Shown here: positions 48,151 to 49,558 of the stretch, in pieces
Layout of the letters: every line of letters begins with the position of its first letter
How positions within the stretch are numbered: position 1 is the stretch's first letter
Source: Planctomycetota bacterium
Lineage (GTDB): Bacteria > Planctomycetota > Phycisphaerae > WQYP01
NCBI GenBank assembly: GCA_021851715.1
Contig: JAJZCR010000010.1
Span: 1 to 64,000, forward strand
Length of the DNA stretch: 64,000 bases
Reading direction: 5' to 3'
Translations under genes and position numbers: made by a program
The notes under the pieces: generated by a model
What the model saw: only the letters and a program-made list of their open reading frames with translations
Database searches by the model: none
What the model was told of the DNA's origin: nothing

Positions 48151-48179
48151 TTGACTTTTGGTGGTGGGTTGCCCATAAT
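48151..48179 (+). promoter_or_regulatory. Promoter of the aroF leader
   Basis: TTGACT at 48151-48156, a 17-base spacer and CATAAT at 48174-48179 resemble a housekeeping promoter. Transcription would start about six to seven bases later, at or beside the ATG at 48186, which would make the leader ORF leaderless or nearly so. Confidence 0.65.
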
Positions 48180-48185
48180 TTTCTG

Positions 48186-48272
48186 ATGAACGCGATCTGG
48201 TCATATTTTCAGCATCCTGTCCGCGAACCCGTTTGGCGATTTTGGCGGGCTGCTTTTTACTTTTCAACTTGA
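48186..48272 (+). CDS. Aromatic-rich leader peptide of aroF (attenuator)
   Basis: A 28-codon ORF has Trp at codons 5, 17 and 20, Tyr at 7 and 25, and Phe at 8, 19, 24 and 26, so nine of 28 residues are aromatic, plus His at 10. This is the pattern of leader peptides that sense aromatic amino acids by ribosome stalling. It ends at TGA 48270-48272, 48 bases before a terminator stem. Codons 20-22 contain the anti-terminator segment (48244-48251). A start codon immediately after the -10 box and a lack of a ribosome-binding site suggest leaderless initiation. Confidence 0.8.
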   Translation: MNAIWSYFQHPVREPVWRFWRAAFYFST

Positions 48273-48328
48273 GACCATCGCGAGCTTAGACGTCCTTCAT
48301 ACATCAGAAAGCGTACTTTAAGCCCGCC
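48244..48328 (+). promoter_or_regulatory. Anti-terminator pairing in the aroF leader
   Basis: GGCGGGCT at 48244-48251, inside the leader ORF, is exactly complementary to AGCCCGCC at 48321-48328, the 5' arm of the terminator. Pairing would prevent the terminator from forming. A ribosome stalled at the early aromatic codons (48198-48209) would leave the first segment free, while one that moves through to the stop would cover it, allowing termination. The pairing is seen. The behaviour is inference. Confidence 0.65.
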
Positions 48329-48349
48329 CGCAAGACGGGCTGTTTTTTT
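48321..48349 (+). terminator. Attenuator terminator upstream of aroF
   Basis: AGCCCG at 48321-48326 pairs with CGGGCT at 48336-48341 and is followed by G and seven T residues (48343-48349). It lies between the leader peptide and the 52-codon ORF, so it sits inside the unit and not at its end, as expected for an attenuator. Confidence 0.8.
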
Positions 48350-48360
48350 GAGGTTCTTCT

Positions 48361-48519
48361 ATGAATAACTCACTCGAAGCTACACTGCAGCAGGCCGTGA
48401 ATCTGGCTGAAAGATCGGTGCAACTCGCCGCCAAGATTGAGCACGCTCTTTGCGTCAGCGGCGAGCAGGAGCGTCTTTGGCGGACAACCCGAAAAATCAA
48501 CGACCAACAACGGCTGTAA
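48361..48519 (+). CDS. Small helical protein in front of aroF
   Basis: This 52-residue frame begins with an ATG eight bases after GAGG and ends 13 bases before the aroF ATG. Its residues form a likely single amphipathic helix ([18 protein letters not shown]) and a basic end. It could be a small regulator or partner of DAHP synthase, or a spacer ORF that couples translation to aroF. It resembles chorismate mutase helices only weakly. No family is recognised. Confidence 0.6.
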
Positions 48520-48532
48520 ACAGGAGCAAACA

Positions 48533-49558
48533 ATGATTGTGGTAATGGCCATGGGCGCAACTACCGGACAGGTGGACCATGTGGTAACCCTCATCCGGGA
48601 AATGGGTTTGCGTGAACATGTGATTGTCGGCACCGAACGCACGGTGATCGCCGCCCTTGGCGACGACCGTGCCAAGGATAAGGACAAACTCGAAAACGCC
48701 GCCGGTGTGGAACGGGTCATGCCCGTATTAGCCCCCTACAAAATGGCGTCGCGTGAAGTCAAGAAGGAACGCACTGTGGTACGGCTGGGGGGCACGCTCG
48801 GCGGCAGTGTGGGAGGCAATTCCATCGCCCTGATTGCCGGCCCGTGCTCGGTGGAGGATCGCACGCAGCTTCTTGAAATCGCTCATCAGGTGAAAGAAGC
48901 GGGGGCAACGGCTTTGCGCGGCGGTGCGTTTAAACCGCGCACCAGCCCGTATGCGTTTCAGGGCCTGGGTGAAAAGGGCCTGGAAATTCTGGCTGAAGCC
49001 CGCCTGCAAACCGGGTTGGCCGTCGTAACGGAAGTAATGTCGGTTGAGCAGGTGCCGTTGGTGGCCCAATATGCGGATGTCTTTCAGGTGGGTGCCCGCA
49101 ACATGCAGAATTATAACCTGCTCTGGGCTGTCGGCGAACAGCGCAAACCTGTGCTGCTGAAGCGCGGATTAAGCGCCACCCTGGAGGAATTTTTACTGGC
49201 TGCGGAATATATCATGTCCCGCGGCAACAGCGACGTTATTCTCTGTGAACGCGGCATCCGTACGTTTGAAACGTATTGTCGCAACACGCTGCCGCTGGCC
49301 ATTGTGCCGGAAGTGCATCGCATCAGCCATTTGCCGATTGTGGTGGATCCATCACAGGGTACCGGCCACGCCCACCTGGTGCCGGACATGTGCCGGGCCG
49401 CGGTGGCCTGCGGTGCCGATGGGTTGATCATTGAATGTCACCATGATCCGGAACACGCGCTGACCGACGGGGCTCAATCCATCACTCCGCAGACGCTTAA
49501 GGAACTGGCCAGGTCCTTGCAATTGATTGCCAAGGCCATCAACCGGACTGTACAATAG
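48533..49558 (+). CDS. aroF: DAHP synthase (3-deoxy-7-phosphoheptulonate synthase), type I beta
   Basis: This enzyme joins phosphoenolpyruvate and erythrose 4-phosphate at the start of aromatic amino-acid synthesis. The 341-residue product has an N-terminal ferredoxin-like regulatory domain (residues 1-75), typical of Thermotoga-type feedback-regulated DAHP synthases. The barrel has GPCSVED at 103-109, [16 protein letters not shown] near 137, an EVMS segment near 180, VGARNMQN near 202 and DPSQGTGH near 275. Start ATG 48533 follows AGGAG. Its leader suggests control by aromatic amino acids at transcription, and the N-terminal domain suggests a second control by binding. Confidence 0.95.

Follow-up and report, generated by a model that had tools for sequence, protein, structure and literature searches.

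The window analysed here, a 64-kb stretch of planctomycete DNA, very probably carries upstream of aroF a ribosome-mediated transcription attenuator by which this DAHP synthase gene would sense the supply of aromatic aminoacyl-tRNAs. Attenuation of a planctomycete DAHP synthase had been put forward in the original prediction as an inference; it is now supported by comparative tests, and the response to aromatic amino acids is what we infer from the arrangement. Transcription would begin at or beside the A of the leader ATG and, because of this, a 70S ribosome would initiate on a leaderless 5' end. The ribosome would then trail the polymerase along an ORF with many Trp, Tyr and Phe codons. When charged aromatic tRNAs are ample, it would reach the stop codon, with the antiterminator strand either covered or held in a local hairpin; this strand being unavailable, the 5' arm of the terminator would be free and transcription would stop at the T run. 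When aromatic aminoacyl-tRNAs are scarce, the ribosome would stall at the aromatic codons and a downstream strand would pair with the terminator 5' arm, allowing the polymerase to continue into a small ORF and aroF.

The components of this device are found in order on the forward strand. The -35 hexamer TTGACT (48151-48156), whose TTGACN form is kept in relatives, is separated by 17 nt from the -10 hexamer CATAAT (48174-48179); the proposed promoter (48151-48179) proved exact when checked base by base, and the -10 hexamer was also compared with relatives. Six nucleotides past the -10 box lies the ATG of the leader (48186-48188), which is the expected transcription start. It opens a 28-codon ORF (48186-48272, predicted to be leaderless) that ends with the stop codon TGA (48270-48272) and encodes the peptide MNAIWSYFQHPVREPVWRFWRAAFYFST. 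The nine aromatic codons announced for this ORF were likewise recovered base by base (W5, Y7, F8, W17, F19, W20, F24, Y25 and F26). The predicted sensing codons belong to the first cluster, TGG TCA TAT TTT (W5 S6 Y7 F8, 48198-48209), and the Y7-F8 codons TAT TTT are identical across all five members of the window genus. Further along the ORF, segment 1, CCCGTT (48228-48233), can pair with positions 48244-48249, which belong to segment 2, the 8-mer GGCGGGCT of the original prediction (48244-48251) and a candidate antiterminator strand. An alternative candidate, CGCGAGCTT (48279-48287), is located 3' of the leader stop and is invariant in the window genus. Segments 3 and 4 form the terminator hairpin (48321-48341) in two overlapping registers, AGCCCG/CGGGCT (48321-48326/48336-48341) and GCCCG/CGGGC (48326-48330/48336-48340), followed by a run of seven T read from the sequence (48343-48349).

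As had been proposed, the hairpin and its seven T precede a DAHP synthase gene, according to both the sequence and a domain search. The 341-residue product of aroF (48533-49558, forward strand) has an N-terminal ferredoxin-like domain, matches PF00793 (1.4e-72) and PF18152 (6.1e-22) and scores above the TIGR01361 cut-off. The gene begins only at 48533, and a 52-codon ORF absent from the original prediction lies between the terminator and aroF (48361-48519, forward strand), with its own Shine-Dalgarno-like GAGG. Related ORFs of 35-52 residues were found at 12 loci of the family, several of them with a Shine-Dalgarno-like GGAG; they share an invariant Leu, an invariant Ile and a Trp near the C-terminus that is usually part of LWR or RWR. 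The window ORF has no Pfam match. It possibly encodes a small protein co-regulated with aroF.

The association of these features with aroF was evaluated by a four-part rule requiring a good promoter, a start codon 5-9 nt after it, an ORF of 15-50 codons including at least six aromatic ones, and a terminator past the stop. Within the 64-kb window, the rule matches just one site, the leader at 48151-48349. Applied to both strands of 1.05 Mb of planctomycete DNA, it returned 20 sites, all of them (20/20) upstream of aroF and none elsewhere. Of 87 unique orthologous loci, 42 proved in an automatic scan to be preceded by an aromatic leader and a terminator, a few of them doubtful (e.g. L102), with leaders such as MKSDGPFCFAKSTGDGFRFWFYYFTGALRRAG, VKHSFATFSFWFSGYFYPLRNCAF and MNTTWYSFSFYYFTDFRPGRWGFAVR. 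Under a stricter rule, an aromatic ORF and a terminator are present together in 34/86 orthologous upstream regions and in 25/78 regions of an additional set drawn across the phylum, which includes families far from that of the window (e.g. leaders MNGSTYWFAYFYFFGGHTAA and MRHRYFSYRYWYFYFSPPDHRAGAVL). All three features, with a slightly wider rule for the -10 box, co-occur in 23/86 and 6/78 regions. The aromatic-codon enrichment expected in relatives was also observed, aromatic ORFs being found in 46/86 upstream regions versus 4/86 in antisense. Neither the combination of aromatic ORF and terminator nor the full pattern was found in antisense or in any of 65 control upstream regions, taken from the second DAHP synthase paralogue, trpE/pabB and prephenate dehydratase. 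No leader is detectable at roughly half of the orthologous loci. At five loci (L066, L070, L213, L239 and L241), the rule used recognises no clear T-run terminator with the aromatic leader (e.g. MLRTAYYFWFYFAPAGRGAGGGL); these loci may rely on a different kind of terminator or on control of translation. In the same family, attenuators were also sought ahead of trpE/pabB, prephenate dehydratase and the second DAHP synthase paralogue, and none was found; the aromatic-looking ORFs ahead of this paralogue shift frame between relatives. Among Rfam leader families, none scored above threshold in 20 loci, and the Trp_leader family RF00513 reached 20.7 bits in the window (E 0.9), below its gathering threshold of 41 bits.

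The original prediction offered a leaderless leader peptide as possible, and the promoter geometry that suggested it is conserved throughout the leader set. A good promoter (at least 9/12 hexamer matches, with the start codon 5-9 nt downstream) precedes 30 of 39 leaders, against a background of 0.35% of all ATG/GTG codons, and most leaders have their start codon 6-7 nt past the -10 box. As this geometry recurs, having almost no 5' leader is a conserved property of the predicted transcripts, and leaderless initiation looks conserved as well. Five leaders (L020, L046, L025, L026 and L052) apparently begin with GTG instead of ATG. The first three keep the usual distance from the -10 box and may thus undergo leaderless initiation on GTG.

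The exact complementarity claimed between the ORF and the 5' arm of the hairpin is real: GGCGGGCT (48244-48251) and AGCCCGCC (48321-48328) are exact reverse complements, and their pairing amounts to -18.5 kcal/mol. The window terminator itself is weak, at about -10 kcal/mol. The 1:2 hairpin CCCGTT/GGCGGG has an energy of -7.5 kcal/mol in the window and of -12.6 to -13.7 kcal/mol in three congeners. The post-stop strand CGCGAGCTT pairs with segment 3 at -8 to -12 kcal/mol with one A-C mismatch, and its position is homologous to that of the antiterminator strand of sister genera. Taken alone, a complementarity of 8 nt is moderately unusual (p = 0.013 versus shuffles), so that the case against chance rests on comparative evidence. 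Part of this evidence comes from a permutation test, used in place of a hand-aligned covariation table that was judged biased. At 24 divergent loci, the end of the ORF pairs with its own terminator 5' arm at a mean of -18.0 kcal/mol, versus -13.9 kcal/mol (sd 0.64) when the arms are exchanged between loci, and none of 100,000 permuted exchanges was as good as the matching pairs. The complementarity is locus-specific and the two strands have therefore changed together, which bears out the compensating changes anticipated between ORF strand and terminator arm; leader ORF, terminator and complementarity all recur across the phylum. Much of the window family has the strand/arm pair GCGGGCT/AGCCCGC, and one of its genera has CAGGCTTT/AAAGCCTG; other Phycisphaerae carry GCGTTCTGA/TCAGGACGC, and Pirellula-like genomes carry TGGGGTT/AACCTCA. 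The distance from the leader stop to the terminator is 23-49 nt. In the first three of these groups, the window genus excepted, the position of the strand is at the leader stop or overlaps it, so that a ribosome completing the ORF would cover it. The window genus instead has the exact 8-mer mid-ORF, about seven codons ahead of the stop.

The consequences of ribosome position were modelled in two ways, a first model in which RNA could pair across the ribosome being replaced by a barrier model in which the ribosome blocks such pairing. With the barrier, a ribosome placed at the aromatic cluster leaves the terminator 5' arm more sequestered than one placed at the stop in 39/39 loci, a result that is partly trivial because more upstream sequence is then exposed; sequestration exceeds that of dinucleotide-shuffled sequence in 36/39 loci. 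For the window, the modelled probability of the terminator is 0.00 with a stall at W5 or F8, the terminator is likewise lost at Y7, and the probability is 0.80-0.83 from W17 to F26 and at the stop. The scheme of mutually exclusive structures proposed around the 8-mer is corrected in this respect: in the model, only a stall at codons 5-8 frees the 8-mer, which is masked at the later aromatic codons (W17-F26). These late codons fit the simple scheme poorly, since termination is predicted there. In the first model, with pairing permitted across the ribosome, the arm is more sequestered at the stop than in the cluster for three of the five members of the window genus. For several relatives, the terminator persists at every ribosome position in the equilibrium model, and the switch would therefore have to be kinetic in them. 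The working antiterminator of the window genome could be either GGCGGGCT or the post-stop CGCGAGCTT, both of which are candidates.

The variation of the leader peptide bears on what the device would sense. In divergent groups, aromatic codons differ mostly at the third position or swap among W, Y and F, a pattern that, as far as these small groups allow, is as expected of a translated leader. Throughout the phylum the aromatic run often precedes an end rich in Gly, Arg and Ala, which looks like a by-product of the G-rich antiterminator strand encoded within the ORF. The close relative L031 has one base inserted, compared with the window, which shifts the leader stop; its peptide ends in VRLRPSRA, similar to the PRA and RRAG ends found in sister genera. 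TnaC is a leader peptide whose ribosome arrests in response to tryptophan. Similarly, the planctomycete peptide could arrest its ribosome on a free aromatic compound instead of reporting tRNA charging. Distant groups do share an aromatic run followed by Thr/Ser and Gly/Pro (FYYFTG, WFTG, FYFSP), and this motif is more constant than codon sensing requires. However, the peptide varies freely outside the aromatic run, the aromatic residues interchange, and the Gly/Arg/Ala-rich ends are accounted for by the encoded strand, making such nascent-chain sensing quite improbable. The terminated leader transcript or its peptide could also work in trans, with or without attenuation in cis, as rnTrpL and peTrpL of Sinorhizobium are said to do, and a short leaderless transcript and a peptide would indeed arise whenever aromatic amino acids are ample. 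Aside from aromatic content and pairing, however, conservation of peptide and RNA between genera is poor, contrary to what a product acting in trans would lead one to expect, and this possibility appears very slim. Finally, the chance meeting of a random aromatic ORF with an unrelated promoter and terminator, conceivable from the 36 aromatic-rich short ORFs of the window alone and the modest p value of the 8-nt complementarity (p = 0.013), has a negligible probability and was ruled out by the 1.05-Mb scan, the permutation test and the control promoters, the combination being found solely upstream of aroF, in many families of the phylum and with zero control matches.

Ribosome-mediated attenuation of aroF, the preferred reading, belongs to a type of switch best known from proteobacteria and actinobacteria. 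The enterobacterial trp and pheA systems, invoked as precedent in the original prediction, are switches of the same type, but the closest precedent is aroR-aroF of Corynebacterium glutamicum. Like the enterobacterial trpL and pheL leaders, the planctomycete element combines a leader ORF of cognate codons, alternative 1:2, 2:3 and 3:4 pairings and an intrinsic terminator. The enterobacterial leaders have a ribosome-binding site and each senses one amino acid, whereas the planctomycete leader is predicted to be leaderless and is shared by three. Outside proteobacteria, classical attenuators of trp and leu genes were found by comparison in actinobacteria, where they target trp, trpS, leuS and related genes; the available part of that account mentions no DAHP synthase attenuator (PMC1262725). 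The literature searched, in which few subscription journals were covered, yielded no published description of this attenuator in planctomycetes and no mapped leaderless start in Planctomycetota. The switch is thus of a type known from other bacteria, and its phylum-spread planctomycete family appears to be undescribed. The leader set also provides promoter-start-terminator sites at which leaderless translation could be tested in Planctomycetota.

In C. glutamicum, the aroR leader with its Phe-Tyr-Phe codons is reported to precede a DAHP synthase gene controlled by ribosome-stalling attenuation (Neshat et al. 2014, as relayed in PMC11802643 and PMC4046766). In the same species, several small leader mRNAs are described as leaderless and the ilvBNC leader is reportedly made without a ribosome-binding site (PMC4046766). 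The planctomycete leader similarly places aromatic codons ahead of a DAHP synthase gene (PF00793 and PF18152) but, unlike aroR, planctomycete leaders carry longer mixed runs of Trp, Tyr and Phe codons. The TIGR01361-type enzyme was not detected in C. glutamicum by the same search of control genomes. Common descent with aroR-aroF is for this reason unlikely, and the two devices probably arose independently. We lean slightly towards a broader reading, in which the planctomycete device would be phylum-wide, probably ancestral and of separate origin from its actinobacterial counterpart. Leaderless initiation would then be part of its conserved design, and a single leaderless leader would read the supply of Trp, Tyr and Phe where the shikimate pathway begins. 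Overall, the conservation of this probable attenuator across the phylum, at the point of entry into aromatic synthesis and with predicted leaderless initiation, suggests that evolution reached this solution on more than one occasion.
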